DNA of 63,656 bases from a virus (IMGVR_UViG_3300036859_000369:1-63656), one strand, 5' to 3'; shown: positions 2,737 to 58,440, counted from the stretch's first letter. The notes: a model not told the origin generated them from the sequence alone. Translations and numbers: made by a program.

Positions 2737-3363
2737 TCAGGCAGCTTGCAGTGCGTGAATCGACATGATGTAATCGTCCCACCCGGTCAATCCGCCATTG
2801 ACGAGGATGCGGGTATTCTCCCAATCCCCCAGCCGGGCCGCATCCGGGATGCCATAACCTGACTGGTACCGGTGATGTTGGAAGTACAACGCCAGTACGG
2901 CCGCCGATACGTCGTTCAGCAGTGCGTCATCAGGCCGGGCGATCAAGTCCACGCCCCGACCCAGGAGCGCGCTCGTCATCTCGCCGTATGTCCGGTAGTT
3001 ACCCGCATGGGTCAATTGGATCAGTCCTCGCCCGAACCACGGCCAGTACCAGAGGTTATTCCGTCGCCAGGTTTCGGCTGGCTCCGGTTCTCCCAGGTAG
3101 TACGCCTCACGGACAGGCCAGAATGCCCCGGCTTCAACGCCAATCGTCGCTAGTGCGGCAATCTGCACCGGTCGATCCGCGATCCCCAATCCGTGCAACG
3201 CGGATACCACGAGCGGCCACTGTATCTCGACGTTGACAAGGGGCGATCCGAGAATCCGGCTGATGGTCCGGGCATCCCAGAATTCCCATGGATTGCCGAT
3301 CGGATCGGGTGGAACGAGTTGCAGTCGTCGTCGTTGCTGTTGGATGATAGCCGCACGCATCAC
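2737..3363 (-). CDS. Endolysin, GH19 chitinase/lysozyme-like
   Basis: 208 residues. The segment GRGLIQLTHAGNY, followed by a Gly-x-Asp-Leu step and a proline-rich P-D-D motif, is the signature core of GH19-type endolysins, which hydrolyse the glycan strands of peptidoglycan. An upstream Glu in GVEAGAFWPVRE is a plausible catalytic acid. There is no signal peptide, so export would need a holin. It is coupled (TGATG) to a 35-residue ORF upstream and lies with a small membrane protein at the end of the late operon, as expected for a lysis cassette. Confidence 0.85.
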   Translation of the reverse strand: MMRAAIIQQQRRRLQLVPPDPIGNPWEFWDARTISRILGSPLVNVEIQWPLVVSALHGLGIADRPVQIAALATIGVEAGAFWPVREAYYLGEPEPAETWRRNNLWYWPWFGRGLIQLTHAGNYRTYGEMTSALLGRGVDLIARPDDALLNDVSAAVLALYFQHHRYQSGYGIPDAARLGDWENTRILVNGGLTGWDDYIMSIHALQAA

Positions 3364-3467
3364 CAGGTACCCCTGGTTGCCCCTGTGCGCAACATAGGAC
3401 GCTCCGGACGACTGTCAGGCTGTTCTGATGCACCCGGCTGTTTCAGGCCGTTTCTCGTCAATCTCAT
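3360..3467 (-). CDS. 35-residue coupled ORF, unknown
   Basis: A very short frame beginning MRLTRNGLKQPGAS and ending in GTRGTW-like basic residues. Its ATG overlaps the stop of the upstream hydrolase (ATGA) and its TGA overlaps the endolysin start (TGATG), so it exactly fills the gap between two real genes. That tight coupling is the main evidence; it may act mainly as a translation relay. No family recognised. Confidence 0.5.
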   Translation of the reverse strand: MRLTRNGLKQPGASEQPDSRPERPMLRTGATRGTW

Positions 3468-4558
3468 GCCAGTCGTTCCACGGCCGTCCCGTTCCACCGG
3501 AGCATGGCCGACGCAAACGCCTGACGGGTCGGACCACCCCCTTCCGGGATCTCGTGGCCGAGTGGGCTGCCGATCTCGGCGTAGTGCTCGCGCCAATAGG
3601 TCGGTATCGCCCAGGTGTGAATGGTAGCGTTGTACTCCAGGGTTGGCGCAATCGCGGTCCATGCTTGCCGCCACATCTCCAGCTCGGCCGCTTCGGGAGT
3701 CTCGGGCACCTTCGGCGGCTCCGGGATTTCGCCACCACCATCAGGAGTCGGCAACGGCACCGGGATAGCGAGTGTGGACGCGAAGGCGTACGCATCGGCC
3801 GATGGCTTCGGGCTACCATCGTTGCGATACAGCCCGAAGCCATCCACCATGTCGTCAGTCATGCAGAACCACTGCACGGCGATGATGTCGGTCCGCCGGG
3901 CCATCGCGTTGCACATCCGCTCGACATACTGCCCCTGGAACGCTTCGTCAACTTCCTGCGTCGAGAGTCCGATCTCTGTCACCATGATCGGCTTGCCATA
4001 GGCGGCGTAACCGTCGATCAGATCTCCGATATACCCAGTACCCCAGGTGGGTGACGGCCAGTTTGGTTCTGGTCGCTTTCCATACGGATGGACACCTACA
4101 ACGCTCATCCACGAGAGATCCTGGCCGTCTAGCCAGGATGGTTGCCCCGAGACCAGTCCGCCGCAGATGATCGTTTTCCCTGGCAGTCCCGCACGGGCTG
4201 CCTTGCCCATCGTCTGGAAATCCGCTTTGCTCATGCTCCAGGACGACGGGGACACATGGTCCGGCTCGTTCCCCACGATCCACGCGACCGCGTAGCGGTC
4301 ATACCTGGTGGCGTAGACGGTGATCGCTCGACCGGTTGATGCCGCGATATGCGCCGAATCGACCGGTCCGAACGCCTCGATGCTCAGACGATCCAAGAGC
4401 AGTAACGGATAGATATCATGCGCGAGATAGTCCGCCAATGTGCCGCCAACGTCCTCGTCACGACGGGCAACAACGATCGCCCACCGTGCCCCGATATGCG
4501 CTAGCGATGCACCGGTTGTTCCGCCATCTTCGCGGACATTCATACCAAGGGTTGCCAT
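3464..4558 (-). CDS. Glycoside hydrolase-like (TIM-barrel) tail-associated protein
   Basis: 364 residues. The first ~260 read as a (beta/alpha)8 hydrolase: AWIVGNEPDH carries the N-E pair typical of the acid/base in clan GH-A enzymes, and MVTEIGLST supplies the second Glu (nucleophile). A Pro/Glu-rich hinge (PTPDGGGEIPEPP) joins a C-terminal ~80-residue region with Trp/Tyr. It lies between fibre genes and the endolysin, so it may degrade surface glycans during adsorption or assist lysis. Family assignment below clan level is uncertain. Confidence 0.72.
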   Translation of the reverse strand: MATLGMNVREDGGTTGASLAHIGARWAIVVARRDEDVGGTLADYLAHDIYPLLLLDRLSIEAFGPVDSAHIAASTGRAITVYATRYDRYAVAWIVGNEPDHVSPSSWSMSKADFQTMGKAARAGLPGKTIICGGLVSGQPSWLDGQDLSWMSVVGVHPYGKRPEPNWPSPTWGTGYIGDLIDGYAAYGKPIMVTEIGLSTQEVDEAFQGQYVERMCNAMARRTDIIAVQWFCMTDDMVDGFGLYRNDGSPKPSADAYAFASTLAIPVPLPTPDGGGEIPEPPKVPETPEAAELEMWRQAWTAIAPTLEYNATIHTWAIPTYWREHYAEIGSPLGHEIPEGGGPTRQAFASAMLRWNGTAVERLA

Positions 4559-28663: not shown

Positions 28664-30739
28664 CTAGACCTTGACGCGGGCAGCCTCGCCGGCTCGCTTT
28701 GCCAGGTCCGGATGCTCCGATGCAATCTGACGCTGGGCCTCGCCAATACCGATACCCTTTTCAGCGGCGCGCTTCGTGGCCAGGGCCGTAATCTGTTCCT
28801 GGGGATCAGCGCTCGTCTCGGCGGATGACGTGCCGGCCTCCCCGAACAGGTTCGACGTACGCAACTGCTCGGCCAGCGCTCGCTGCTGGGCGACATAGCC
28901 AGTGAAGAGCTCGTGGTCCTCGCCCACCGTGGATGACAGGTGTTCCAGGTGCGCAACATGGGCGGCCGGCTCACCGAACCAACGCGGCCCGCCGCTTTCA
29001 GCCTTGCCGGTTACTTCCTCAGTAAACCGCTTGCGCCGGGCATCGCGCTCCATGGTCTGGACGCGCTCAGCCAGTTGTGTCGCCTGTGTGGCGGACTGCT
29101 CGGCCGTCGCCTTGCTGGCTTCAAGCTCGGCCGCGATCCGCTTGTTTTCGGATTCCAGCTCGCTCATGCGCCGCGACTGTTCCTCAGTCATCGCAACCGG
29201 GGTGCTCTCCGGCTTCGGGTTGGGACTGGCCATCGGACTCGCCTCCTCTGTGCTGTGTGGCGCATCTTCCGATGCCGCCAGGGATCGCAGCGCCGCTGGC
29301 TTGAAAAACGGGCGCGTGGTCAACGCTGCGCCCATCAAGATGTTTTCATGCGTCTCACCGTTGATCGGGTCTCGCCATTCGTCATACCAGGCCGGACTGA
29401 TGTAGAAGAACCGATCATCGCGCAAGGCGTCGGCCCCGCGCTCGTTCCATTCCACAACCGCGTCAACCGACCCGTCCGTATTCGTTACGAGATCCGTAAT
29501 CCACCCGGCTGCCCCACCCAGCAACGTCTCGTGCTCCAGGTCAATTGGCAGCCGGTCCTGGTACACGTGGTCCTGGAAATTCTGCACGAACGACGCGATC
29601 CGATCCGGGCTCATATCGATCTTGCCGTAAGCCGGATGCGCGTACGACCCCGGGACCGGCAAGATCGGAATGGTCGCCGGCGGTTCTATGTACTGCCGTT
29701 CAGACATCACGAGCGGCATGTCTCGGTACGGCACACCCCGGAGCGCGAACGTCTCGCGACCAGCCTCGTCCCGGCTGGACGATACCGTCAGGTTGTCCAG
29801 TGGGACCGTCACATCCGGTAGCGCCACTGTCATGGCGCGCCCCGGTTCAACGTAGGCGAGTGTCACGTGCGGGGTAAACGCATGATCGGATCGCGGCGAC
29901 AGGCCGGCTTCATACAGGGCCATGCACAGGCGCCAGCGAAAATCCTGGAGTCCTCCACAGTCCACGACCGCATAGATGACGTCCTTACCGTCGCTGCCAT
30001 GCTCCGCGCTAAACCGACTCACGCCACACAGGCGCAGCTCGATCGGCTGCACCGTCAGTGCGAACGCCTGTACCGCGATCCGTAGCCGCTCAGTGGCATC
30101 GCCCGGCAACTCGTCTGACTTGCCGAGATAGGCGAGTGTCAGGTGCAAGTCGCCGGGCAGCTCGCCTCCGGGAATGGCGATCTCGTTTGCCACATCGGAC
30201 GGCAGCCAGAATCCGACCCACAGGCTATCGCCTTCGGCTGCCGTGAATGCTTCGGCGGTTACGCGGTTGCGGGCTTTCGCCACGCCGCCTGCATAGCCGG
30301 CCGCCGCTCTGATGATCGCTTTGAGATCCGCATCCGACAAGTCGCCGTCCTTGATCTTGGACTTGATCAGGTCGCGCAGTTTGCCCAGATAGTCGGCATT
30401 CGGCTCGGCCAGGTACTCCGGCTTGATGGCCTGCATCGCCAGTCGTTGCGCCAGATCCGTCACACCATCCGCGCGTTGATCATCCGGCCAGCCGATCTCG
30501 TCCAGGCACAAGTCCGCGATATCCTGGGTCGTCACGCCTTCCAACATGGTCGGCATGGATTCGGTGCCCATGACGACGCCATTGGCCTGCGCGAATGCGG
30601 CCGACTCGGCATCCTTGTCGGACTTGCCGTCCTTTTTGGCTCGTGCATATGCCGAATTCCACACAGCAACCCATTTGCGCTGGTCCTTTTTGTCCAGCTT
30701 CTTGACGGCATCGGGCACCGTGGCTAATGTGTACGGCAT
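28664..30739 (-). CDS. ChaB-like / 2H phosphoesterase-like / prohead protease / scaffold fusion
   Basis: 691 residues from MPYTLATVPD. Residues 1-55 resemble ChaB. Residues ~160-300 form a 2H (LigT-type) domain with paired HLTLAY (199-204) and HVTLAY (291-296) motifs. Residues ~350-490 match Mu I-type proteases (DRLPIDLEHETLLGGAAGWI, FFYISPAW). Residues 500-691 are a charged, Ala-rich coiled coil typical of scaffold. The protease would mature the prohead and remove scaffold; the 2H domain suggests RNA or cyclic-nucleotide cleavage. Such a four-part chain is unusual. ATG 18 bp after a terminator hairpin. Confidence 0.85.
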   Translation of the reverse strand: MPYTLATVPDAVKKLDKKDQRKWVAVWNSAYARAKKDGKSDKDAESAAFAQANGVVMGTESMPTMLEGVTTQDIADLCLDEIGWPDDQRADGVTDLAQRLAMQAIKPEYLAEPNADYLGKLRDLIKSKIKDGDLSDADLKAIIRAAAGYAGGVAKARNRVTAEAFTAAEGDSLWVGFWLPSDVANEIAIPGGELPGDLHLTLAYLGKSDELPGDATERLRIAVQAFALTVQPIELRLCGVSRFSAEHGSDGKDVIYAVVDCGGLQDFRWRLCMALYEAGLSPRSDHAFTPHVTLAYVEPGRAMTVALPDVTVPLDNLTVSSSRDEAGRETFALRGVPYRDMPLVMSERQYIEPPATIPILPVPGSYAHPAYGKIDMSPDRIASFVQNFQDHVYQDRLPIDLEHETLLGGAAGWITDLVTNTDGSVDAVVEWNERGADALRDDRFFYISPAWYDEWRDPINGETHENILMGAALTTRPFFKPAALRSLAASEDAPHSTEEASPMASPNPKPESTPVAMTEEQSRRMSELESENKRIAAELEASKATAEQSATQATQLAERVQTMERDARRKRFTEEVTGKAESGGPRWFGEPAAHVAHLEHLSSTVGEDHELFTGYVAQQRALAEQLRTSNLFGEAGTSSAETSADPQEQITALATKRAAEKGIGIGEAQRQIASEHPDLAKRAGEAARVKV

Positions 30740-30756
30740 CTGCTCGCCTATGCAAA

Positions 30757-30792
30757 AGGGCGGCCCCGGTGCACGTGCACCGGGGCCGCCCT
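30757..30792 (-). terminator. Terminator/attenuator hairpin before the head operon
   Basis: A perfect 36-nt palindrome (arms GGGCGGCCCCGGTGCAC), followed on the minus strand by TTTT and only 18 bp before the protease/scaffold ATG. As a T-tailed GC hairpin it should stop transcription immediately before the structural genes unless overridden. Confidence 0.8.
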
Positions 30793-30795
30793 GCG

Positions 30796-31006
30796 TTCCT
30801 CGGACGGGAGAGCGTATAAGGGTGGGCCGGTTGGCGAACCTACTCGGGCAACGGGTCCGCGCGTCCCGTACGGTCCTTTTCACATTCGCCAACGAGCCCA
30901 GGAAAGCGGATTGGCGGTGTCCCAAGATATAAGGCCGGCGCCGGCCCCTTGTTCGACCACCGTTCCGCTATCAGTCAGTGTACTCTAGTTCTCTCCAGGT
31001 TGTCAA
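30796..31006 (-). promoter_or_regulatory. Candidate promoter and structured leader RNA of the head operon
   Basis: On the minus strand TTGACA (31001-31006) lies 18 bp from TACACT (30977-30982). The leader then carries a 14-bp palindrome (30933-30946), a 9-bp long-range stem (30885-30893 with 30830-30838) enclosing an ACGGG/CCCGT hairpin, and finally the terminator. No ORF with a ribosome site occupies it. It looks like an attenuator or put-like antitermination leader; promoter strength uncertain. Confidence 0.5.
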
Positions 31007-34257: not shown

Positions 34258-34577
34258 GGCGCCCTCCCGCGTTTCGCCGCGCGCTCATTCCATTTCAACG
34301 TACCAACGCGATCCCGCTCTCTCATCTCGATGTCGGCATAGTTGCCGAGTTTCACGGCGCGGATGCTGTAGCGCGCACGTGTCCCGTGTGGCAGTCGTCT
34401 CCGTGGGACCACGCGCCTGATATCTCGCACCCAGTAGACCGTACCCCCGCCGTTACCGCGTGTGGTCAGTGTGCGCAGGTATCGGATAGGCCGCATCGGG
34501 TCGTCGGGCAATGCATCATCCGATCGCCAGTCATACGGACTGATCGTCACGACATCACCCACGGCTGCGCGTTTCAT
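34254..34577 (-). CDS. 107-residue basic protein, unknown
   Basis: MKRAAVGDVVTISPYDWRSDD: an SH3-like start, arginine-rich centre (DIRRVVPRRRLPHGTRARYSI) and basic end. Coupled to the portal stop. A small nucleic-acid-binding or head accessory role is possible. Confidence 0.62.
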   Translation of the reverse strand: MKRAAVGDVVTISPYDWRSDDALPDDPMRPIRYLRTLTTRGNGGGTVYWVRDIRRVVPRRRLPHGTRARYSIRAVKLGNYADIEMRERDRVGTLKWNERAAKRGRAP

Positions 34578-37042
34578 GGCGCCGTCACGTCCTCTAGTGG
34601 GGGCAGCTCCATCGTCTCACGGATGGCGTTCTCTAGTCCGTTATCCGGGGTCAAGCCGCCGGCCGTTAGCAGTTTGGATACCGAGTCCGAAAATTCCCGG
34701 ACGTCCTTGCTACTGATGTCCTCATGGGCGAGGGTCGGATTGAGATCCGGCGCCATGCCATTCAGACGGATCAATCGGGGGATACCGTGTGTATTGACCA
34801 CGTCGCAGATCCCGTCAACCCAGGCTCCGAGTGCCACGGCAAACAGATCGGTTTTATCCGAGCTCAATGCCCATGACCCATGCTGTTGCGCGCCCAACAG
34901 CATAAAATCAGCCAGCACAGACATCAACATCCGCTGGTCGTACCGCGTGATGATCGCGCCGGTATCAAACTGACGCGTTCCGCCGGTTGAAAGCAGGGTC
35001 ACGTCAAACAGCTTGTTGCCATTGGCATCATACGCCTGTGGCATGACCGCGCCCTCCCACTCATCCCGGCGCATCGCGGTCACCATCTTTTTGGCGTATT
35101 CGTAGACGGCCGTCTGCCCGGCTGTTGCGGTTGAGGCGTCCATGTAGGACGGGGGTAGCCAGGCAACCGGATAGCCGACAAGGTCACGTTCGACACCGAT
35201 CGCCTCGATGTTCTCAATTCTGGACTTATACCGCCAGGGTCGGTACGCCGTTCTCAGAATCGAAAGTCCCTCCGGGTTACCTCGGTTGCTCTCTGTCCGG
35301 AACAGCAACGCCTTTTCAATCGGGATAATCCTGGTTGTGTAGTCAGGTGGGGCACTCTGAACAAACGCCTGTGTCCCGCCGTTTTCGTCAAACTGCCATT
35401 CCCAGAGCGTATCTTGTGAGCGGATCGGCCATTTCCGCCAGCCAATCCGTCCATCCGTGAATCTCGACCGGTGCGACGGATCGCGGCTGTCGCCATCCCG
35501 GATCTTGTAGACGGTCTCGTGATACGAATTCGAGACGACCACCGGCCCGGCGCAGAACGTGTGATCCTGCTCTATTTCCAGATCATAGACCGTGCCCGTA
35601 TACTCCTCGTGATCCACACTCTGGATAACGTGCTCGACTGCACCGTCACGCACATGGCACTGCAACCCATGTGGTGAAACACTTCGCTCCCGGAATAGCC
35701 ATGACCGTACGGCCGCAATGGTCACGCCGTACTTTTCGGCGATCATACGCCACGGCTTACCGTCTGCCCGCATAGACCGTGCATCATCTCGCTGCTCCTG
35801 CGAAACCCTCAGCGGGTGCGTAACAAATCGCTCCGGCACTGCCCCTACTTGCCAGTAACTCGGCCCGGTGATCTCTCGCCCCTTCAGCACTGACGTATAA
35901 CCACCCTTACGCCATACAAGCGGAGACGGGTACCCCAGCGCGCCCCCTATCAACTGCATCTGGTGAGCCAGGGTACGACTGACTGTTGCCGCCGACGCAA
36001 CCCGATAATCTCGGCCGGCGCGTGTAATCGTCGCCTCATGACCGTCGCCCCAGATCCACCCTTCCCAGATCCCCCGTGCAAATTCTGACGAATCCGGCAT
36101 TTTCCGTAAGTGCTTATTCGTCGCACGATCGCCGCCCACCCATTCCTCGATCATCTGACGGATGTGAGGGCTGGAGACGGTCACCGACCCTCCGTTAGGC
36201 TTTCGTATCGCCGTCCGTGCACGGGGGGTTTCCCCATATCGGTTGATGAGTTGATTGGCCTCGGAGAATCGGTCAATCTCAGCGGCCAAGATGTCCAGCT
36301 CCTTACGATGCACGGCAAAATGAACCAGGTGGCGTTTATCCTTCGGGAGATGCCCCTCGGCAAGGTACACCCCCACGATCCACCCGGCATCGTAGTCCCC
36401 ATCCGGTAGCATTTTGGGCCGTGGGCGCAACAATGTGTCTCCCACCGACAGATCCCCTGCCTGTTTCCACCCGTCCAACGTCGGAACACGATGCTCCGGT
36501 GTCATACGAACAGGATGCGGATAGCCTCGCATTTTTAGTGTGACCATCGAACCGGCATGTCGTCTTGTAAATACATGGGACACACGTCGCGCTCGCCCCC
36601 TGCCAGTCAGAACCAGGTCGCCAACGGAGATGTCTGCTATTGGCCTCGGTTCGCCGTTCCCCATAAGCACCAACTGGTCTGGGGGCAAGCAGTATCCGTA
36701 CCATAGAAACGACACGATGTCCGATATCGTTTCTTTCCAGGACATGGACATATCATGGAACATCGCGCCGTCGATAAACTCGGCTATCTCTAGCGCTGCG
36801 TTGTCCTGAGATGCGGGATCGATGCGGAATTTCATCTGTCGAATGAGCATTTTGAATGCAAAGGTCAGTGCGCCAATCACCGGATCATTCTGCGTCATTT
36901 GTTTGATAACGTTGATCTTATTGCGACCACGTAATTCCGGGAGCTGCTCGTCGTCAACCTGGCCGGCCGACCGGACGATACCGGTCACGCCGATCTCTTC
37001 TAACGGCGCGGTTGTGTGTCGGCCGGTCCCGTTGACAACCAT
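34574..37042 (-). CDS. Portal protein containing an intein
   Basis: 822-residue precursor. Residues 1-117 and 506-822 are portal exteins, meeting at WYGY|SYHETVYKIRDG, the conserved portal core. Residues 118-505 are an intein (see separate entry). The mature 434-residue portal would form the dodecameric vertex that threads DNA and binds terminase. C-extein features include QDTLWEWQFDENGG, LGAQQHGSWALSSDKTD. Splicing depends on Cys118 and Ser506. Next to terminase, as usual. Confidence 0.93.
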   Translation of the reverse strand: MVVNGTGRHTTAPLEEIGVTGIVRSAGQVDDEQLPELRGRNKINVIKQMTQNDPVIGALTFAFKMLIRQMKFRIDPASQDNAALEIAEFIDGAMFHDMSMSWKETISDIVSFLWYGYCLPPDQLVLMGNGEPRPIADISVGDLVLTGRGRARRVSHVFTRRHAGSMVTLKMRGYPHPVRMTPEHRVPTLDGWKQAGDLSVGDTLLRPRPKMLPDGDYDAGWIVGVYLAEGHLPKDKRHLVHFAVHRKELDILAAEIDRFSEANQLINRYGETPRARTAIRKPNGGSVTVSSPHIRQMIEEWVGGDRATNKHLRKMPDSSEFARGIWEGWIWGDGHEATITRAGRDYRVASAATVSRTLAHQMQLIGGALGYPSPLVWRKGGYTSVLKGREITGPSYWQVGAVPERFVTHPLRVSQEQRDDARSMRADGKPWRMIAEKYGVTIAAVRSWLFRERSVSPHGLQCHVRDGAVEHVIQSVDHEEYTGTVYDLEIEQDHTFCAGPVVVSNSYHETVYKIRDGDSRDPSHRSRFTDGRIGWRKWPIRSQDTLWEWQFDENGGTQAFVQSAPPDYTTRIIPIEKALLFRTESNRGNPEGLSILRTAYRPWRYKSRIENIEAIGVERDLVGYPVAWLPPSYMDASTATAGQTAVYEYAKKMVTAMRRDEWEGAVMPQAYDANGNKLFDVTLLSTGGTRQFDTGAIITRYDQRMLMSVLADFMLLGAQQHGSWALSSDKTDLFAVALGAWVDGICDVVNTHGIPRLIRLNGMAPDLNPTLAHEDISSKDVREFSDSVSKLLTAGGLTPDNGLENAIRETMELPPLEDVTAP
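35528..36691 (-). mobile_element. Intein in the portal gene with LAGLIDADG endonuclease and a helix-turn-helix insert
   Basis: 388 residues, 118-505 of the portal. Block A begins CLPPDQLVLMGNG; block B has TPEHRVPT with the conserved T-x-x-H; LAGLIDADG helices are AGWIVGVYLAEGH (219-231) and ARGIWEGWIWGDGH (322-335); block F is VYDLEIEQDHTF; the end is VVVSN followed by Ser. The usual penultimate His is Ser504. Residues ~416-452 (MRADGKPWRMIAEKYGV..) read as a helix-turn-helix between endonuclease and block F, uncommon in inteins. Confidence 0.92.
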
Positions 37043-41150: not shown

Positions 41151-41288
41151 GTCGTTTCCTCATCCGGCGCTCATGATTCCAGAGCGCCCGCTGTGTGCGG
41201 TGGTCTCGGTTACAGCACTGGCAGACAAGTGGGATATACATGGATACCTCCGGGGGTCACGAACGGTGGAGCCTCTTGCATTCTCCAC

Positions 41289-41305
41289 GTCATTTCAGAA
41301 ATGAC
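41289..41305. repeat. Dispersed inverted repeat, 17-nt variant
   Basis: GTCATTTCAGAA plus ATGAC: arms of 8 around a single base. It is the usual palindrome between a G-phased tract and the SSB gene, though without the long stem of the other three. Confidence 0.75.
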
Positions 41306-41344
41306 CCCCGGAGCATACCACACTGGACGTGTGCGCGGGTGGCT

Positions 41345-41650
41345 GTTTGCATGAACGATCGTTCGTCCGTACGCATGCTGTGAGCGTGAGCGCGGCTGTA
41401 CGCTGGTACGCTAGCGGGTGAGAATGTCTGTCGGTTCGGCTGCGTTGACCGCATGTCTGTTCGGAGAGTGTTCGTCCGGTTGCTGGTACGGGTGTCGGTA
41501 CGCATGCGTGAATGTGTGGGTGGTTGTGGGCCGGCGGGTGGGTACGTTGGACCGTTGGCCTGGATGTGGGTGAATCTGGATGTACGAACGTCGGTAGGCA
41601 TGCGGGATGGGCTGTACGCATGAATGATGGTTGGTATGGATGTTCGGGTG
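41345..41650. repeat. G-phased tetranucleotide tract 1
   Basis: Non-coding. On the plus strand G recurs every fourth base. From 41470 to 41650 there are 45 G in 46 in-phase positions (exception 41574); from 41345 to 41380 all nine tetramers start with G, with a few phase changes between. It sits between a gene stop (41664) and SSB. Confidence 0.85.
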
Positions 41651-41663
41651 ATCTGACCGACTG

Positions 41664-42005
41664 TTAGACTGACGGATCGTCTGCCTCAATCGTGTATGGG
41701 ATCGGGTAGTCATCCGAATGCTCGTCATTCTGAAATGACGCGTACCTGGGCTCCGGTCGCCCTATCGCCTGCATGTCCGCCTGGGTTGCGCGTCGTTCAG
41801 TCAATGGCAAGTACACGCACCGTTCCGGGTGACTGGCCGATAGTAAGCAGGTCCGGATGGTCCATGCCCCGAACCTGATCGACGTTCGCCCACAGATCTC
41901 CTGATCGATGCCAGCCCGGAATGCATGTCGTCCGAAATGTGGTTTCGCACGTGTACACCGCTCCGGGGTGCCTTCAGTCAGATCGATCACGTCGCAACGG
42001 TTCAT
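41664..42005 (-). CDS. 113-residue protein, unknown
   Basis: MNRCDVIDLTEGTPERC start with ATGA overlap to the nuclease gene. Contains CTRAKPHFGRHAF and CVYLPLTERRATQA. The dispersed repeat at 41724 lies within its C-terminal codons (F-Q-N-D). Acidic tail. No family. Confidence 0.6.
   Translation of the reverse strand: MNRCDVIDLTEGTPERCTRAKPHFGRHAFRAGIDQEICGRTSIRFGAWTIRTCLLSASHPERCVYLPLTERRATQADMQAIGRPEPRYASFQNDEHSDDYPIPYTIEADDPSV
41724..41739. repeat. 16-bp dispersed inverted repeat inside a gene
   Basis: GTCATTCTGAAATGAC, read in the coding frame as part of ASFQNDEH, so this copy has been absorbed into a coding sequence. Confidence 0.85.
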
Positions 42006-42778
42006 GCCATAAACCCCCGTACTTTCGCCCGTTTGATGGTCTGCACCACCCGTCCGCCACGCCCCCGGATGATCAGGGTCGCGTTGTCCCGATCGATCAT
42101 ACACCGCAAACAGACCGGCACCAGACACCACTGATGCAGGAGATCCACGACCCCCCAGGTGTGCAGGCTGTTGCCGGCGAAGGTATTCCAGAGCGCATCC
42201 CGATCGGATGGGCGCGGGACGTACACTTCGATGGCAGACACGCCCGCATCGCGCAGCATCGCCCAATGGTCCAGCCATGCGATTTGATCCCAGGTCAGGA
42301 CGCCGTCCTCTTTCTTCGCTTCCAGAAACAACGTCCGTCCGTTCGGGTGGGCGAAAACATCATCCGGCCAGCCGGGGTCACTATGGTCTGATCGGTTCGT
42401 GTGATACTGCAACCGAAACCCGCACTCAAAGGCATAGGTCCGGATCTGTCTGCGCCAGGTGTTCTCAGTCAACCCTCGGTTGGCGATGTCGTCCCACTGT
42501 TCGCGGGTGATCTCGCCCCGGTCGTTCGTCACGACAGGGCGCCTGTTTGTGGCCGGACGTGGTTCTGGTCGGGTTATGGGTTTGTCGCCCCGGATTCGAC
42601 GCTCCGGGCCTTTGGGGGGCATCTGTGTCGGCAGCATCGACCAGTAATCCTCGCACCGGCACCGACTGATGGTACAGGGCCGCCTGCGCCGGCGCGACAC
42701 CGGCAAGGTGTGGGACGCTTCGGCGTGCCCACAATGGCACTCCGGATGCGGCTTGACACGACGGACCGGCTGCACCAT
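42002..42778 (-). CDS. VRR-NUC-type nuclease
   Basis: 258 residues. Cysteine/His-rich N-domain (HPECHCGH, CRCEDYW), linker, then a nuclease fold: DPGWPDDVF (Asp), LFLEAKKEDGVL (E-x-K) and WDQIAWLDHW, which fit VRR-NUC/PD-(D/E)XK enzymes such as phage Holliday-junction resolvases. Near SSB, so replication or recombination is likely. Longer start lies inside the next gene. Confidence 0.82.
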   Translation of the reverse strand: MVQPVRRVKPHPECHCGHAEASHTLPVSRRRRRPCTISRCRCEDYWSMLPTQMPPKGPERRIRGDKPITRPEPRPATNRRPVVTNDRGEITREQWDDIANRGLTENTWRRQIRTYAFECGFRLQYHTNRSDHSDPGWPDDVFAHPNGRTLFLEAKKEDGVLTWDQIAWLDHWAMLRDAGVSAIEVYVPRPSDRDALWNTFAGNSLHTWGVVDLLHQWCLVPVCLRCMIDRDNATLIIRGRGGRVVQTIKRAKVRGFMA

Positions 42779-42981
42779 TACTCCGTGCGCTTCAGTTGCA
42801 GGATCGTCCGACCGCCGGCCTGTTCGGCAGCCTGTTGCGCCGCTTCCTCGTTCGGATAGACCGGCAAGTAGCCAACCATGTGATCCTCGCGGGTGCTCGA
42901 TGAAATGTCCCACGGTCTGACGGCCAGGATTGCCCATAGGTGCCCGTTCGCATCTGTTTCGATGTCGAGATCACTACTCAT
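42778..42981 (-). CDS. 67-residue protein, unknown
   Basis: MSSDLDIETDANGHLWAI; beta-strand start, then a helical NEEAAQQAAEQAGGRT. Its stop overlaps the nuclease start (TGATG). No family. Confidence 0.6.
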   Translation of the reverse strand: MSSDLDIETDANGHLWAILAVRPWDISSSTREDHMVGYLPVYPNEEAAQQAAEQAGGRTILQLKRTE

Positions 42982-42983
42982 CG

Positions 42984-43409
42984 TTACTCCGGGAGTGGCC
43001 GTTGTTCGATCGGATCGGACCACGGCCAGCGCCAGCCGCAACCAGTAGCCAGTGTCGTCGGTCCCCAGTCGATCGGGCAATGATACACGTAGTTGCCGTC
43101 CCCGAGAATCATCTGTATCCGGATGCGTGGTCCGCCGCAGTTCGGGCACCCGGACGGGTGTGGGTGTTTCGCTGTGTTGGCTTCCATCCGGGCCATCAGT
43201 GCACGGACAGACGGCTGCATCCACCAGGAGACTTCGGGTGATGTTCTGACGTGCGGCGGTTCAGGTCCAGGTGCTGTGCGTCGAACGGCTGTCTGTGTCT
43301 GGCCGGTCGCCCGTTGATTGTGCGCGGACAATTTCTTCAGTTCGTCGGCGCGCTGCTTTGCGATCTGTTTGTCACGTGCTCGCCGGTAGGCGGCTCCCCC
43401 GTCTGCCAT
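42984..43409 (-). CDS. Zinc-ribbon protein, unknown
   Basis: 141 residues. N-terminal charged helix (YRRARDKQIAKQRADELKK); middle GCPNCGGP and later YHCPIDWGP / GCGWRW give a C4-like ribbon. Probably a DNA- or RNA-binding accessory. CGGAGG precedes ATG; the upstream hairpin at 43421 lies 11 bp away. Confidence 0.65.
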   Translation of the reverse strand: MADGGAAYRRARDKQIAKQRADELKKLSAHNQRATGQTQTAVRRTAPGPEPPHVRTSPEVSWWMQPSVRALMARMEANTAKHPHPSGCPNCGGPRIRIQMILGDGNYVYHCPIDWGPTTLATGCGWRWPWSDPIEQRPLPE

Positions 43410-43420
43410 GCTGTCCTCCG

Positions 43421-43456
43421 CGCCCGCCCGGTCATTCTAGAATGACCGGGCGGGCG
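43421..43456. repeat. Extended 36-nt palindrome containing the dispersed repeat
   Basis: Perfect palindrome with core GTCATTCTAGAATGAC (43431-43446) flanked by CCCGCCCG-type arms. On the minus strand it precedes CGGAGGACAGC-ATG of the zinc-ribbon gene, i.e. a 5' hairpin; no T tract. Confidence 0.9.
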
Positions 43457-43920
43457 GTTGTCTGTACGGCCGGTTGTGCGTTCGTCCGGATGGTCGCATG
43501 CGCGCCGGTCTGGTGGTCCGGAAGATCGGATGTTCGTTTGTTCGCACGATTGGTTGCAGGTTCGGCCGGCGGTTCGGCTGATCGTATGGCCGAACGTATG
43601 GGCGCATGTACGATCGGTGGGCCGAAGGTGTGCCCGGAGGGTGGGGTTGATCGCCGGTCGGTGCGGGCTGTCTGGCTGTCCGGTTGCCTGATGGTCGGTA
43701 CGCTCGCCGGTGCGAGTGAATGGGCAGGTTGATCGTGCGGCTGCCTGTGGGGCTCGCTGGTTGGTGTGGTCGTTTGAACGACTCGCCTGCACGCATGCGC
43801 GAGGGAATGTCGGAGCGGATGTCCGCCGGAATGCGGGGTCGATCGAATGTCGGTATGAGGGGCAGAACGTCTGTACGTGCGGGTGATCGGCTGTGCGCAG
43901 GTACGTGTGAGCGCGGGCTA
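43456..43920. repeat. G-phased tetranucleotide tract 2 (longest run)
   Basis: From 43456 to 43647, 48 consecutive tetranucleotides begin with G (for example GTTC, GATC, GTAC, GGCC). A middle part has shifted phase, then 34 consecutive G-first tetramers fill 43785-43920. No ribosome-site gene is present; frames crossing it are low-complexity. The last tetramer overlaps the next gene's stop by three bases. Confidence 0.9.
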
Positions 43921-44433
43921 TGACGCTTGTTCGTTGACCTGGACAGACCGCCGGCCCTCGGTGATGCCGCCTCGGACCGCGTCGCCCACCGCTTCGGCTG
44001 CCTGACGGGCTACGAGCTCGCCGTCTATCGTTGGGTCCAACGCCGCCAGCAGTTGCGCCTGACTCCGGTAGGCGGCTGGCCCCTCCATGTTCATGAACCG
44101 TTGGATTGACCGGATCGCCTCGCGCCGGTTCACGTCGTCCAGTTCTGCGATACGTCGGGCCGTGCGGTTGATCCGACCGCCCCGGCGATCGGGCGCAAAC
44201 TGTCGGATGCCATCCTCAGTCCGGGCGCGAGCCGTGTACGCCTGAAGTCCGGCCCGGACGGCCATACGTTGCAGCGCGTCTCCGTCCGGCTCGATGCGGA
44301 TCAGGCCGGCCCGTTGGGCTGCCAGAAGACGGCTCATCATGTCGTCAATCGATTCGTACCCATCCTCTCCGAGAGACAACGCCTGATCGATGGGTATCAC
44401 GTCGTTCGTGGTGGTATCGATGATTCGGAGCAT
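43918..44433 (-). CDS. 171-residue helical protein, unknown
   Basis: MLRIIDTTTNDVIPIDQALSL; helical, Arg-rich centre (RRGGRINRTARRIAELDDVN), ending NEQAS. A lone gene between two hairpin/tract units. No family. Confidence 0.65.
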   Translation of the reverse strand: MLRIIDTTTNDVIPIDQALSLGEDGYESIDDMMSRLLAAQRAGLIRIEPDGDALQRMAVRAGLQAYTARARTEDGIRQFAPDRRGGRINRTARRIAELDDVNRREAIRSIQRFMNMEGPAAYRSQAQLLAALDPTIDGELVARQAAEAVGDAVRGGITEGRRSVQVNEQAS

Positions 44434-44453
44434 CGGTGCCCCTTTCGGGTTGG

Positions 44454-44489
44454 GGTGCCCGGGGTCATTCTGGAATGACCCCGGGCACC
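44454..44489. repeat. Extended 36-nt hairpin containing the dispersed repeat
   Basis: Perfect 17-bp arms (GGTGCCCGGGGTCATTC) with a TG loop. The core 16-mer is 44464-44479. On the minus strand it lies 20 bp upstream of the ATG, followed by AAAGGGGCACCG. Confidence 0.9.
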
Positions 44490-44515
44490 TGATGGTGTGC
44501 GTTGACCGCTAAGCC

Positions 44516-44822
44516 GTCTGTACGAATGTACGTGCGGCCGGTGGAATGCCGGGACTGTGTGCCGGCTCGGCTGCGTGTCTGGCCGTTCGTCTGCGAGACG
44601 GATGGAATGCTCGTTTGAGGGTCAGCCCGGGTGTCCGGTCGTATGCCTGTCTGTCCGCCTGCTTGTTTATCTGTACGGCTGAGCGCTTGCGGGAAGGCTC
44701 GGTTAGACCGTCCGCTGGCATGTGCGGTTGTTCGTAGGAATGGTCGCCTGTGCGGTTAGGATGGGGGAATGAACGATCGGATGCGCGGTTAGGCGCGTTC
44801 GTGAGTCCGATCGTGGGATCGG
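44516..44822. repeat. G-phased tetranucleotide tract 3
   Basis: G at every fourth base on the plus strand with a few phase shifts; from 44557 to 44701 there are 36 G at 37 in-phase positions. Non-coding between the 379-residue gene and the hairpin at 44454. Confidence 0.85.
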
Positions 44823-45962
44823 TCAGCGCTGGCCGTTGGCGCCCTGCACGGTCCGGATGGTCTCGGGCTTGACGCGGTCGCGTGGGTCGTCGTCGTCGTT
44901 GTTCATCGGCAGGTCCATCGGCTCGGGCGGCATCGGCACGTGCTCGCCGTTCGACATGGTCACCCAGGACTCGCCCGTAGACGTTGACACAAGCACAGCG
45001 TCGGCCGGTGCCTCGTTCGGGGCAGATGCGTACTTCTGGGCCTTCGTGACGGTGTCCGCATGGCCCGGCCAGACCTGTCGGCCATTGATTAGCAGACTGC
45101 TGACCACGCCGACTCCCCAGATGCCGCCCTTGCCGGTGCCGGCGCTGCTGATCCCGACATCCTGCACCTGCTCAAACAGGTTGATCAGGTAGCCCTCGGA
45201 AAAGTGGGACAGCGGGAAGTTTGCCCGGATGGTGATCTGGGTCCCGCCCGGCAGCGCTTCGTGCACGATCTCGCCAATCGCCTGTCCCCGGATGTTCGTC
45301 GGCCGGCGGGATGCCCGGATCAACACCTGATCCACCGGCATCAGGATGGTGCCGACCCGGACCCGGTGCCAGGCCACATCCGGCAGAACCCGGCGCACAC
45401 CGGCCGCGTCAATCGTGACGGTCGGGTCGCCCTTTTTCGCTGCCTTCTGAAACGCCGTCAGAATCCAGCCGCCCAGGAGCGCCACCCGGCCCGGCGTGAT
45501 GATGTGCCGCTCGTTGGCGACTTCGGTGATCCGCTTGCCACCACGCCCGGTCCGTTCGATCGTCCGCTCCCGCATCTCGAACGTTTCGCCCACCCGGGGG
45601 AACCGTGAGATGCCGACGCCACCCGGATCGGTGAAACAACCCAGGGTCGGGGTGAGGAACGTCCAGACCGCTTCCACCGGCGCCCACGTACTGTACGGCG
45701 CGATGTAGCGGGCTTCCATCTTGGACCGCAGACCGTCAAGGGCGGACCGCCCGGTCGCCGTGATCTGGTAGCCGGAATCGCTGTTCTGCCGGGTGATCGT
45801 GCCGGCCCGGTCCAGCTTCGTGATCATCTTCCGGATCGCGGACTCTTCTGCTTCGTCGTCCTGCTCCTGGACAGCCAGGATGATCTCGTCGTCCTTGAGC
45901 TCGCCACCATCGGCCACAGCGGCGAAAATCGCCAGTTCAATCGCCTGATTCTTCCCTGCCAT
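44823..45962 (-). CDS. Winged-helix-containing phage protein, unknown
   Basis: 379 residues. N-terminal ~70 residues read as a winged helix (IELAIFAAVADGG, AIRKMITKLDRAG). The body is beta-rich; FSEGYLINLFEQVQDVGISS and a following glycine-rich segment recall ferredoxin-like phage domains with a 'GxGRF' end, but no assignment. Sits in the recombination block, so perhaps a recombination or regulatory protein. Confidence 0.68.
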   Translation of the reverse strand: MAGKNQAIELAIFAAVADGGELKDDEIILAVQEQDDEAEESAIRKMITKLDRAGTITRQNSDSGYQITATGRSALDGLRSKMEARYIAPYSTWAPVEAVWTFLTPTLGCFTDPGGVGISRFPRVGETFEMRERTIERTGRGGKRITEVANERHIITPGRVALLGGWILTAFQKAAKKGDPTVTIDAAGVRRVLPDVAWHRVRVGTILMPVDQVLIRASRRPTNIRGQAIGEIVHEALPGGTQITIRANFPLSHFSEGYLINLFEQVQDVGISSAGTGKGGIWGVGVVSSLLINGRQVWPGHADTVTKAQKYASAPNEAPADAVLVSTSTGESWVTMSNGEHVPMPPEPMDLPMNNDDDDPRDRVKPETIRTVQGANGQR

Positions 45963-45985
45963 CGAAAACCCCTTTCGTGTCGGTG

Positions 45986-46186
45986 CTACAGGATGTGGGT
46001 GCGCTGCAATCGTCGAATGACGCCTTGCAACCGCTTGACAGCGGTCCGTCCGACCGCGTCACGTTGTGTGCGGGTCAGGTGGTTTTTGTAGATCCGCTCC
46101 CCTTCCTTGAATGCACGGCTGATGATCTGTTGCTGGCGCTCGTCGTACCCGTCCAGCAGGTCGTCAATCGTCGCCGCCGCTGCCAT
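45986..46186 (-). CDS. 66-residue helical protein, unknown
   Basis: MAAAATIDDLLDGYDERQQQ; two predicted helices, basic C-terminus (VKRLQGVIRRLQRTHIL). GGAGGGGGAG ribosome site directly after the 46199 hairpin. Confidence 0.65.
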   Translation of the reverse strand: MAAAATIDDLLDGYDERQQQIISRAFKEGERIYKNHLTRTQRDAVGRTAVKRLQGVIRRLQRTHIL

Positions 46187-46198
46187 CTCCCCCTCCGG

Positions 46199-46230
46199 CC
46201 GGGTGGGTCATTTGGGAATGACCCACCCGG
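46199..46230. repeat. Hairpin containing the dispersed repeat
   Basis: Perfect 14-bp arms (CCGGGTGGGTCATT) with a TGGG loop; core 46207-46222. On the minus strand it is 12 bp upstream of ATG 46186. Confidence 0.9.
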
Positions 46231-46441
46231 AATGTATGCACGATCGCTCTCGTGGTCGCTGGTTCGCCTGGCTGAATGCCTGCCGGTACGGGTGTCCCGG
46301 TGAATGACTGTTCGCTTGCGTGCGGGTGTGGATGCCCGACTGCTCGTGGGTACGATCGCCCGGATGCTCGATGGGCGGTGTGAGGGTCTGTACGTACGGA
46401 CGTTCGATCGTCCGCCGGCCCGGTCGATCGGTGGTCAGTCC
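46230..46441. repeat. G-phased tetranucleotide tract 4 (single phase)
   Basis: 212 bp made of 53 tetranucleotides in one continuous phase, of which 51 begin with G (exceptions at 46250 and 46298). It starts at the hairpin and overlaps the stop codon of the 392-residue gene by about seven bases. Confidence 0.9.
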
Positions 46442-56533: not shown

Positions 56534-57757
56534 TCAGTCGTGGACGCAGACGATACACGGACACGTCGGACCGCCAAATGCTTCATGCCAAAGATATCTC
56601 AAGGCAATTTCAGCTTGGGCAGGTACGACCGCGTTCCCCGCTTGCCGGAGGCGGTCAGTGCGTGGGCAGTTGCACCCCGGCACGTCCAGCCGATGCCATT
56701 GTTCCGAAACATCAGCCAATCCGTAAACCACGGATTCAGGCGTAGCAGGCGCCAGCCATGGGCTAGATCCGATGATGTCGCGCCATCTGTCAGGGTCGCC
56801 GGGTCCGGGCGGCCAATCAGGTCCGGGGTTGCTCGAACTGCCTGCCGTCCGAGCAACCCGTTCGTCGGTACGTTCACGTCCTGACAGGCGCCGTCCTTCC
56901 AGTCCCGTGACGTTGCCGTCATCCAGTGGCGAGCCTGCGATGACAGGTCCACCTGCCGCTTGCCACGATCCGTCATCCCCTTTGCTGCTACGTCCCGCGC
57001 GTTCATCAGGCGGCCGCCGTTCGGTACATTGGCCGTCATCCATAGGCGTTGTGACACTTCCTGTGCCACGATCCCCAACGGCCCCTGACCGACCCGTCCT
57101 GTGTGGTGCATGTTGCGCGCATGCCATCCGTCCGGATGTTCCGACTGATTGAACAGACCGGCGTCCGGTGTGGGCCATGTCTGGCCGCCATCCGAATATG
57201 AAGAGTCGGATCCGGCGGTGTGGCGCGCCTGCGTCAGACGCTTTGACCACCGCGCACGTAAACCGGTAGCCCAGCGCTTGAAGATCCTGGCCGATTCTTC
57301 CGAGTCCGTCCGGGTGTCCGATGAGGTTGCTAACGTTCTCAATGAACACCAGGGGAGGGCGCATTTCTCCCAGGACGCGGGCCGTCTGTGCCCACAGATC
57401 CCGCGTATCAGCGGCACCGGCCTGTCGCCCTGCCACTGAGTACGGCTGGCATGGAATTCCGCCGACCAGTAGGTCAGCACGGCCGCGCAACGGTCGTCCG
57501 TCGAACGTGCGAAGGTCGCTCCAAACAGGTGCCGCAGGTAGGCGTCCGCTTTCCATATGCGACGCCAGGACGACGACGTTTGTAAGCTCGATTTCCACAT
57601 ACACGAGCGGGACAATGCCACGGATAACCCGGTGAATGGCGAGATCAAGTCCACCGACCCCGCTACAGACGCTAACGACGGTTGCAGGACGGTTTCGGGC
57701 ACATAGACGAACATCGGTGCACGGACCCCCTCTGACGGCTCGCTCAGACCGTCTCAT
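56534..57757 (-). CDS. Cytosine-C5 DNA methyltransferase
   Basis: 407 residues from MRRSERAVRGG. Motif I SVCSGVGGLDLA; motif IV GGIPCQPYSVAG with the catalytic Cys; motif VI FIENVSNL; motif VIII GAPHRRIRLFIF; motif X QAGNAVVPAQAE. The target-recognition region is long (about 210-340) and low-complexity. The N- and C-parts read in this frame. The same strand in another frame (56599-57714) also gives protein-like W-x-T-P-x-A... and LNPWFTDWLMF segments. Protects phage DNA from restriction. Confidence 0.9.
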   Translation of the reverse strand: MRRSERAVRGGPCTDVRLCARNRPATVVSVCSGVGGLDLAIHRVIRGIVPLVYVEIELTNVVVLASHMESGRLPAAPVWSDLRTFDGRPLRGRADLLVGGIPCQPYSVAGRQAGAADTRDLWAQTARVLGEMRPPLVFIENVSNLIGHPDGLGRIGQDLQALGYRFTCAVVKASDAGAPHRRIRLFIFGWRPDMAHTGRRSVQSVGTSGRMACAQHAPHRTGRSGAVGDRGTGSVTTPMDDGQCTERRPPDERAGRSSKGDDGSWQAAGGPVIAGSPLDDGNVTGLEGRRLSGRERTDERVARTAGSSSNPGPDWPPGPGDPDRWRDIIGSSPWLAPATPESVVYGLADVSEQWHRLDVPGCNCPRTDRLRQAGNAVVPAQAEIALRYLWHEAFGGPTCPCIVCVHD

Positions 57758-58440
57758 GATCTGTCCTGGGCGGGCTTGTGTCGCCAGATGCAGCCCGTAC
57801 AACGACCGTGGCTAGCGTACGCATAGTCCGTCGTTCCGCAATCCTCACAGACCGTGTAAAATCGCGACCAGCGCGGGGTTGGTGCGTCGATCCGGTAGGT
57901 ATCTGTCGCCGGACGCGCTACCAGTCGATACCCAACACCCGAGCACGACAGGAACAGATCGCCACATGGATGCAACCGTCTACGCACACGCGACATATGC
58001 GAACGCAGGAACGCAAAGATCCCGTTTTTTGGTACACGGTCAACGGGATCGTCGCGCCCCCATACGGCAGCAACTATGTCCCCGACTGGCACGGCTGCAT
58101 CCAGATGCTCAGCCAGATACAACACAGTCCGGATCTCTAGCGGCCCCAGGTGAATGTCCCGTCCATTGACCAGCACGGTTGCCCGTGTCGGATCGATCAC
58201 CAGTCCGCCGGTCCGGACCACCTGTCCGCGTTGTGGGCCGGGGGACAGGGACATGCCGTATTCTTCGTGGGTAAGCGGATCGTGCAGCACCACATACCGC
58301 GAAAATACCTGCCCGATAATGAGTACCCGGACTCGCCGGCACGTCTCGCCGCAACCCGCTCCGCGCCATTCCCGGTCTGTCAGCGCGTCGCCCGGATCGG
58401 TCCCGCGTGTGCTATACTGATCGTGCTGCTGACCTGCCAT
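57754..58440 (-). CDS. OmpR/PhoB-type winged-helix protein with C-terminal zinc ribbon
   Basis: 228 residues from MAGQQHDQYS. Residues ~75-175 match a trans_reg_C domain: LVIDPTRATVLVNGRDIHLG, LEIRTVLYLAEH, VWGRDDPVDRVPKNGIFAFL, GVGYRLVA. There is no receiver domain. The C-terminus has CEDCGTTDYAYASHGRCTGCIW, a ribbon. Probable transcription regulator with unusual ribbon tail; ATGA overlaps the methyltransferase. Confidence 0.83.
   Translation of the reverse strand: MAGQQHDQYSTRGTDPGDALTDREWRGAGCGETCRRVRVLIIGQVFSRYVVLHDPLTHEEYGMSLSPGPQRGQVVRTGGLVIDPTRATVLVNGRDIHLGPLEIRTVLYLAEHLDAAVPVGDIVAAVWGRDDPVDRVPKNGIFAFLRSHMSRVRRRLHPCGDLFLSCSGVGYRLVARPATDTYRIDAPTPRWSRFYTVCEDCGTTDYAYASHGRCTGCIWRHKPAQDRS

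Follow-up and report, generated by a model that had tools for sequence, protein, structure and literature searches.

Viral Interference Programmable Repeat (VIPR) systems have been described in Escherichia phage SUSP1 and a Pseudomonas fulva prophage (preprint PMC13142463). Their protein, Vipr, is a Cas7-like RAMP that serves in warfare between phages, and their vrRNA guides have the form (GGY NN)n, whose NN bases are read against DNA with a skip of one base (PMC13142463). VIPR, with its unit of five bases, was presented in 2026 as probably ancestral to CRISPR RAMPs; the main text of the preprint names no 4-nt form and allows for "a related consensus" (PMC13142463). In the RAMP backbone of Class 1 CRISPR systems, repeated subunits set a fixed nucleotide step on the guide; this step is 6 nt, and no base of the guide is fixed. 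Periodic RNA is also found in the targets of the trp RNA-binding attenuation protein (TRAP), which are (G/U)AG repeats with 2–3-nt spacing. TRAP targets have 11 repeats at a 5–6-nt period with three fixed bases in each G-containing triplet, and their spacing can lengthen but not shorten. Here we describe four intergenic tracts with G at every fourth base in IMGVR_UViG_3300036859_000369, a viral DNA of 63,656 nucleotides (hereafter the window, meaning the whole stretch analyzed), and we posit that they most likely belong to a four-base kind of vrRNA.

The tracts almost fully occupy the gaps between minus-strand genes. Their limits, set by dynamic programming that allowed phase breaks, are as follows, with the strand being that which carries the periodic G:

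41325–41686, plus strand: tract 1, 88 units, preceded by a nested hairpin with outer arms at 41248–41259 and 41302–41313.
43440–43957, plus strand: tract 2, 125 units, starting inside the 3' arm of the hairpin at 43421–43456.
About 44491–44824, plus strand: tract 3, about 80 units, between the hairpin at 44454–44489 and the 3' end of a gene for a 379-amino acid protein.
46230–46441, plus strand: tract 4, 50 units, beginning where the hairpin at 46199–46230 ends.

Counted over complete tetramers, G is in phase in 48 of 48 units at 43456–43647, 51 of 53 at 46230–46441, 45 of 45 at 41470–41650, and 36 of 36 at 44557–44701. These values reproduce the counts of an initial annotation made from the DNA sequence; following the phase lengthened the tracts beyond what was given there, and the observation is confirmed as real and larger than first noted. 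A signal no higher than in dinucleotide-matched sequences, which that annotation named as refuting, is not what was seen: the top 160-base segments contain 40 of 40 G in phase, against a maximum of 28 and a mean of 23 in 50 first-order Markov sequences with the dinucleotide content of the window. Within the window, no other base at period 4 behaves comparably, nor does G at period 5 or 7. Between the invariant G residues, base use at positions 2 and 3 of the unit is near uniform and mutually independent, and A is scarce (4%) at position 4, which is otherwise C, T, or G. The register is kept with occasional steps: 316 steps of 4 nt were counted in the window tracts, with 12 of 5 nt and one of 3 nt. 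In tract 2, the +1 breaks are GCCCG, GTGCG, GAATG, GTGGG, and GACTC, followed by longer steps at its end. Over five phages, phase breaks of +1 outnumber those of −1 by 25 to 3 (p = 2.7e-5), an asymmetry consistent with each bound subunit requiring some minimum span.

The period-4 phase rules out protein coding, as had been claimed. A comma code, in which the NNN after each G would serve as codons, was considered and rejected given the presence of stop-like triplets and the lack of any open reading frame (ORF) logic; the C strand is poor in stop codons because C recurs at every fourth base. An assembly artefact, named at the outset as a possible refutation, is unlikely because similar tracts occur in independent contigs of other metagenomes. 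The RNA folding energy of the tracts shows no excess over shuffled controls, and Rfam gave no match for five related loci. The direct repeats and unique spacers of a CRISPR array are not seen, since no duplicated words occur above the level of shuffles, and the window, unlike Class 1 CRISPR loci, contains no CRISPR array or cas genes. A literature search on four-base periodicity found nothing relevant. The earlier statement that no element had been described in this way was nearly right, except that a relative with a 5-nt unit, the vrRNA of VIPR, was published in 2026 (PMC13142463).

The link to VIPR is provided by L287, a 4.3-kb contig of an uncultured phage in IMG/VR. The gene order of L287 is terminase, an oxidoreductase-like gene, gene A (2119–2799), a 4-nt tract, gene B (3251–3769), and another 4-nt tract. 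Gene A belongs to phrog_4652 (E 1.5e-10) and gene B to phrog_15946 (E 1.3e-11), both families of unknown function. The SUSP1 gene that is flanked by vrRNA-like gaps matches phrog_4652 (E 1.4e-96) and the gene A profile (5e-14; hhalign 96.5%), and these alignments identify phrog_4652 as the Vipr family. An AlphaFold model of the gene A product (predicted local distance difference test [pLDDT] of 84) matches Csm3/Cas7 (Foldseek E 3e-5, Z 11 over about 150 residues), so that the protein beside these 4-nt tracts is predicted to share the fold of the Class 1 CRISPR backbone subunit. The suggestion in the initial annotation of a protein or RNA scaffold with a 4-nt register is supported by this locus, which encodes a Vipr-family, Cas7-like RAMP.

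Elsewhere the phrog_4652 and phrog_15946 pair is accompanied by a five-base register. The pair is found in Mycobacterium phage Saal (gp51–52), whose gap ahead of gene A forms a textbook (GGCNN)n tract; the same pair occurs with a like tract in Gordonia phages and Cyanophage Cy-LDV1; among named phages, (GGCNN)n lies beside the pair in Saal, Brocalys, Quico, ODay, UmaThurman, Pipp, and Cy-LDV1. In a survey of 80 phrog_4652 loci and 68 control stretches, in which we counted period-5 G chains with a score of at least 20 within 1.2–1.5 kb, such a chain was present near phrog_4652 in 75 of 80 loci versus 7 of 68 controls. L287 is the sole phrog_4652 locus with a strong period-4 chain (score 50.7) and no period-5 chain (score 7.2). 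Its 4-nt tract retains GGCAGG punctuation, spaced 49–92 nt apart, and in the 5-nt tracts GGCAGGC recurs mostly at 39–74 nt. Given this period-4 chain, the absence of a period-5 chain, and the retained punctuation beside a Vipr-family gene, we consider the existence of a VIPR guide RNA variant with a four-base register very probable. Three Vipr-family loci in the survey (L449, L431, and L385) lack a strong adjoining period-5 tract, which may reflect contig ends or another location of the guides. UmaThurman gp40 (L374:4688–5011) and Pipp gp43 (L370:4719–4988), which are annotated as proteins, read as (GGCNN)n between Vipr and gene B and are likely spurious gene calls in a non-coding tract.

At least four further uncultured phages, represented by unrelated contigs in IMG/VR, have complex tracts with G at every fourth base: G001 (L136; 126 kb), L302 (99 kb), L288 (69 kb), and L287. 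A plain (GNNN)x28 pattern recovers mostly simple repeats from viral contigs, and aperiodic W/S constraints were needed in the search. The G strand is sense in G001, L287, and L302 and antisense in L288 and the window. In our own reading of the G001 sequence, two tracts are 5' leaders, composed of promoter-like elements (TTGACC-N17-TAAGGT/TAGGGT), a hairpin, and GNNN units up to the ATG. G001 also encodes the phrog_4652 and phrog_15946 pair. A period-5 region lies right after this Vipr/gene B pair (L159:13600–14300), in which a 77-nt element occurs four times at a spacing of 94–121 nt, and is probably a vrRNA array with tails; many period-4 tracts lie elsewhere in G001, so that two registers occur in one phage. 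The units of L287 are biased toward GM+NN (A 71% and C 18% at position 2), as are those of L288 (C 64%, A 29%). In the window the constrained neighbor is on the other side of the G, and this may mean that every one of these tracts keeps two variable bases per unit, as in VIPR.

Other searches returned weaker or no parallels. Alternating GYRY tracts of 4-nt units (GTGC GCGT GTAC...) in L138, L329, L340, L346, and L103 are less complex than those of the window and may be either decayed repeats or a class of their own. A genome scan gave mostly simple or coding repeats, with a few complex runs (e.g., L206) near chance, and a pattern search combining palindrome and tract had no match. The nearest phages by terminase, phiAsp2 and TurkishDelight, were free of such tracts wherever scanned, which for phiAsp2 was 50 of its 58.6 kb.

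We place the window element with the VIPR kind by resemblance and by way of L287, its membership being unproved. Like VIPR, the window tracts are phage-encoded (the record is viral, with genes for terminase, portal, and head protease), intergenic, and built on a scaffold of strict periodicity whose intervening bases are hypervariable. They differ from VIPR in having a 4-nt register with a single invariant G and no period-5 G chain. We do not file them as a proven VIPR member because their units are not GGY/NN pentamers and the partner protein in the window is unproved. That they belong to the four-base vrRNA kind is nevertheless the explanation we favor, with moderate confidence. By this mechanism, a long RNA would be transcribed from the tracts, and one Cas7-like RAMP subunit per 4 nt would hold the fixed G and its partly constrained neighbor, polymerizing along the RNA; the remaining free bases would jointly form a gapped guide against the DNA of competing phages, as in VIPR. 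The candidate RAMP would be encoded between tracts 3 and 4, in a neighborhood that includes three orphan genes:

44823–45962, minus strand: candidate RAMP-like partner P0001, 379 amino acids, between tracts 3 and 4; its alignment with Vipr is not significant.
43918–44433, minus strand: orphan gene, 171 amino acids, between tracts 2 and 3, a possible accessory-gene position; no family match.
42984–43409, minus strand: orphan gene, 141 amino acids, left of tract 2.
45986–46186, minus strand: orphan gene, 66 amino acids, left of tract 4.

If P0001 is a RAMP, the gene order near tract 3 resembles the RAMP, tract, gene, tract order of L287 and Cy-LDV1. The N-terminus of P0001 has a weak winged-helix-type match, and hhalign places its C-terminal stretch ITIRANFPLSHFSEGYLINLFEQVQDVGISSAGTGKGGIWGVGVV on the strand–helix part of Vipr that precedes the glycine loop (P 0.03). 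Searches of viral contigs, phages, plasmids, and about 800 bacterial genomes returned no homologues of P0001 beyond spurious matches, and the three window orphans scanned have no match to the accessory-gene families phrog_15946 and phrog_5926. A 366-amino acid protein encoded beside the tract of L302 (L302:82–1182, minus strand) is similar to P0001 in size and layout; the two share the short motif E(A/T)LP.GT.I, a likeness at the motif level that is suggestive only. The L302 protein has no phage homologue.

Several observations weigh against assigning the window tracts to the four-base vrRNA kind. No Vipr homologue was found in the window with hidden Markov models; against the Vipr profile, P0001 ranks second among the window ORFs and seventh of 990 ORFs, which is within noise, and its single-sequence structural model is unusable (pLDDT 37). 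The G strand runs antisense to the neighboring genes, unlike the sense orientation of VIPR, and no sigma-70-like promoter was found. Neither was punctuation seen in the window tracts. At 50–125 units, they are far longer than a vrRNA of 9–16 repeats. The unit bias of the window is [C/T/G]G+NN, which puts the constrained neighbor on the opposite side of the G from that in L287 and L288. Decoding of the window tracts by a skip rule gave chance-level matches only against 4 Mb of local DNA, a result of little weight with neither the host nor its other phages known. We also entertain, as a possible but doubtful alternative, that the window, and perhaps L302, L288, and G001, have a distinct RNA-guided system of four-base register, in which guide RNAs holding a single scaffold base per 4 nt would be carried by a diverged RAMP fused to a DNA-binding winged helix (P0001 and the 366-amino acid L302 protein) and the reading rule would differ from the NN-plus-one-skip rule of VIPR.

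Explanations that involve no guide must also be weighed. A phage protein (TRAP-like, SSB-like, or regulatory) could coat RNA or single-stranded DNA at each 4 nt for transcription control or protection, leaving the other bases unread. Such a scaffold explains the register, the +1 tolerance, and the free positions equally well, and is consistent with the SSB gene that adjoins tract 1, the lack of a Vipr recognizable by sequence in the window, and the occurrence of tracts in both orientations to genes. However, no TRAP-like gene was seen, and the only locus with an identifiable partner, L287, has a Vipr-family RAMP beside its tracts; we therefore consider a non-guide scaffold rather unlikely. The presence of tracts on either strand relative to transcription would also suit a protein polymer on double-stranded DNA that reads G every 4 bp in partition, compaction, or packaging. 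We regard this DNA-level element as improbable given that +1 insertions, which shift the helical phase by about 34 degrees, are repeatedly tolerated and that the periodic sequence is carried as RNA in the family of known mechanism (PMC13142463).

The degenerate tetranucleotide expansion proposed in the initial annotation, in which units expanded by slippage would then have drifted, draws on the many viral contigs with G-phased 4-nt simple repeats and on intermediate tracts (L307 and L138) that look like decayed repeats. The order of units in the window tracts shows no trace of duplication. A simple microsatellite, which the same annotation had set aside, is rejected here too, since the tracts are not built of copied units. 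Words of 8 to 14 nt do not recur clearly more often than after unit shuffling, and the best self-match of the tracts at any lag is about 0.54 versus roughly 0.8–0.9 in most simple-repeat matches. Drift would not spare a single column, yet G is close to 100% while positions 2 and 3 are near uniform; the microsatellite explanation is largely refuted and, in our judgment, highly improbable. We assign a similarly slight chance to a rut-like or anti-rut leader, in which the base composition of untranslated RNA would favor Rho termination when C-rich or block it when G-rich. The tracts do lie in untranslated leaders and gaps, with a C-rich, presumably transcribed strand in the window and a G-rich leader in G001, but base skews are opposite in different phages, and Rho requires no strict 4-nt phase. 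The rut-like RNA suggested initially is further disfavored by the sense strand of other phages, which carries G and not C.

If a four-base vrRNA kind is confirmed, the nucleotide step between RAMP and guide would be evolvable (4, 5, and 6 nt), and the census of such systems would be widened past protein homology by a nucleotide-level signature with which to find them. It would also raise the question of how many bases are read per RAMP subunit once the RNA step is shortened. These consequences would follow from the four-base unit beside a genuine Vipr-family protein in L287 and from the long four-base tracts in phages without a recognizable Vipr.

Structured elements adjoin the window tracts, as they do vrRNAs. 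Hairpins abut three of the tracts and a nested hairpin the fourth, at the 5' end of the G strand, in contrast to the 3' tail of VIPR:

43421–43456, no strand assigned: perfect palindrome with 18-bp arms and core GTCATTCTAGAATGAC, at the left end of tract 2 and 12 nt from the ATG of a minus-strand gene.
44454–44489, no strand assigned: palindrome with 17-bp arms and core GTCATTCTGGAATGAC, at the left end of tract 3.
46199–46230, no strand assigned: palindrome with 14-bp arms and core GTCATTTGGGAATGAC, at the left end of tract 4.

The hairpin at 43421–43456 is 5' of tract 2 on the G strand and 3' of it on the C strand. If the C strand is the RNA, the window hairpins would correspond to the 3' tail of vrRNAs; if the G strand is, they would correspond to a 5' cap like that of G001. 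The hairpin core GTCATT..AATGAC recurs in the window as the 16-bp palindrome GTCATTYNRRAATGAC, with 20 sites between 2245 and 62151 (0.4 expected), and its arms are extended by 8–10 bp only at the three beside tracts 2–4. The sites lie at gene boundaries (e.g., 14678, 31053, and 56030), and several copies directly precede TTGACA-type promoters with ATACCACGGTGGTAT-like operators.

Two other features of the window were recorded. Homologues of the portal protein (34574–37042) match only its two ends, leaving a large middle gap, and the head protease (28664–30925, minus strand) has an "RNA ligase"-type match; inteins are probable in both genes. A C5 cytosine DNA methylase is encoded at 56534–57802 on the minus strand.

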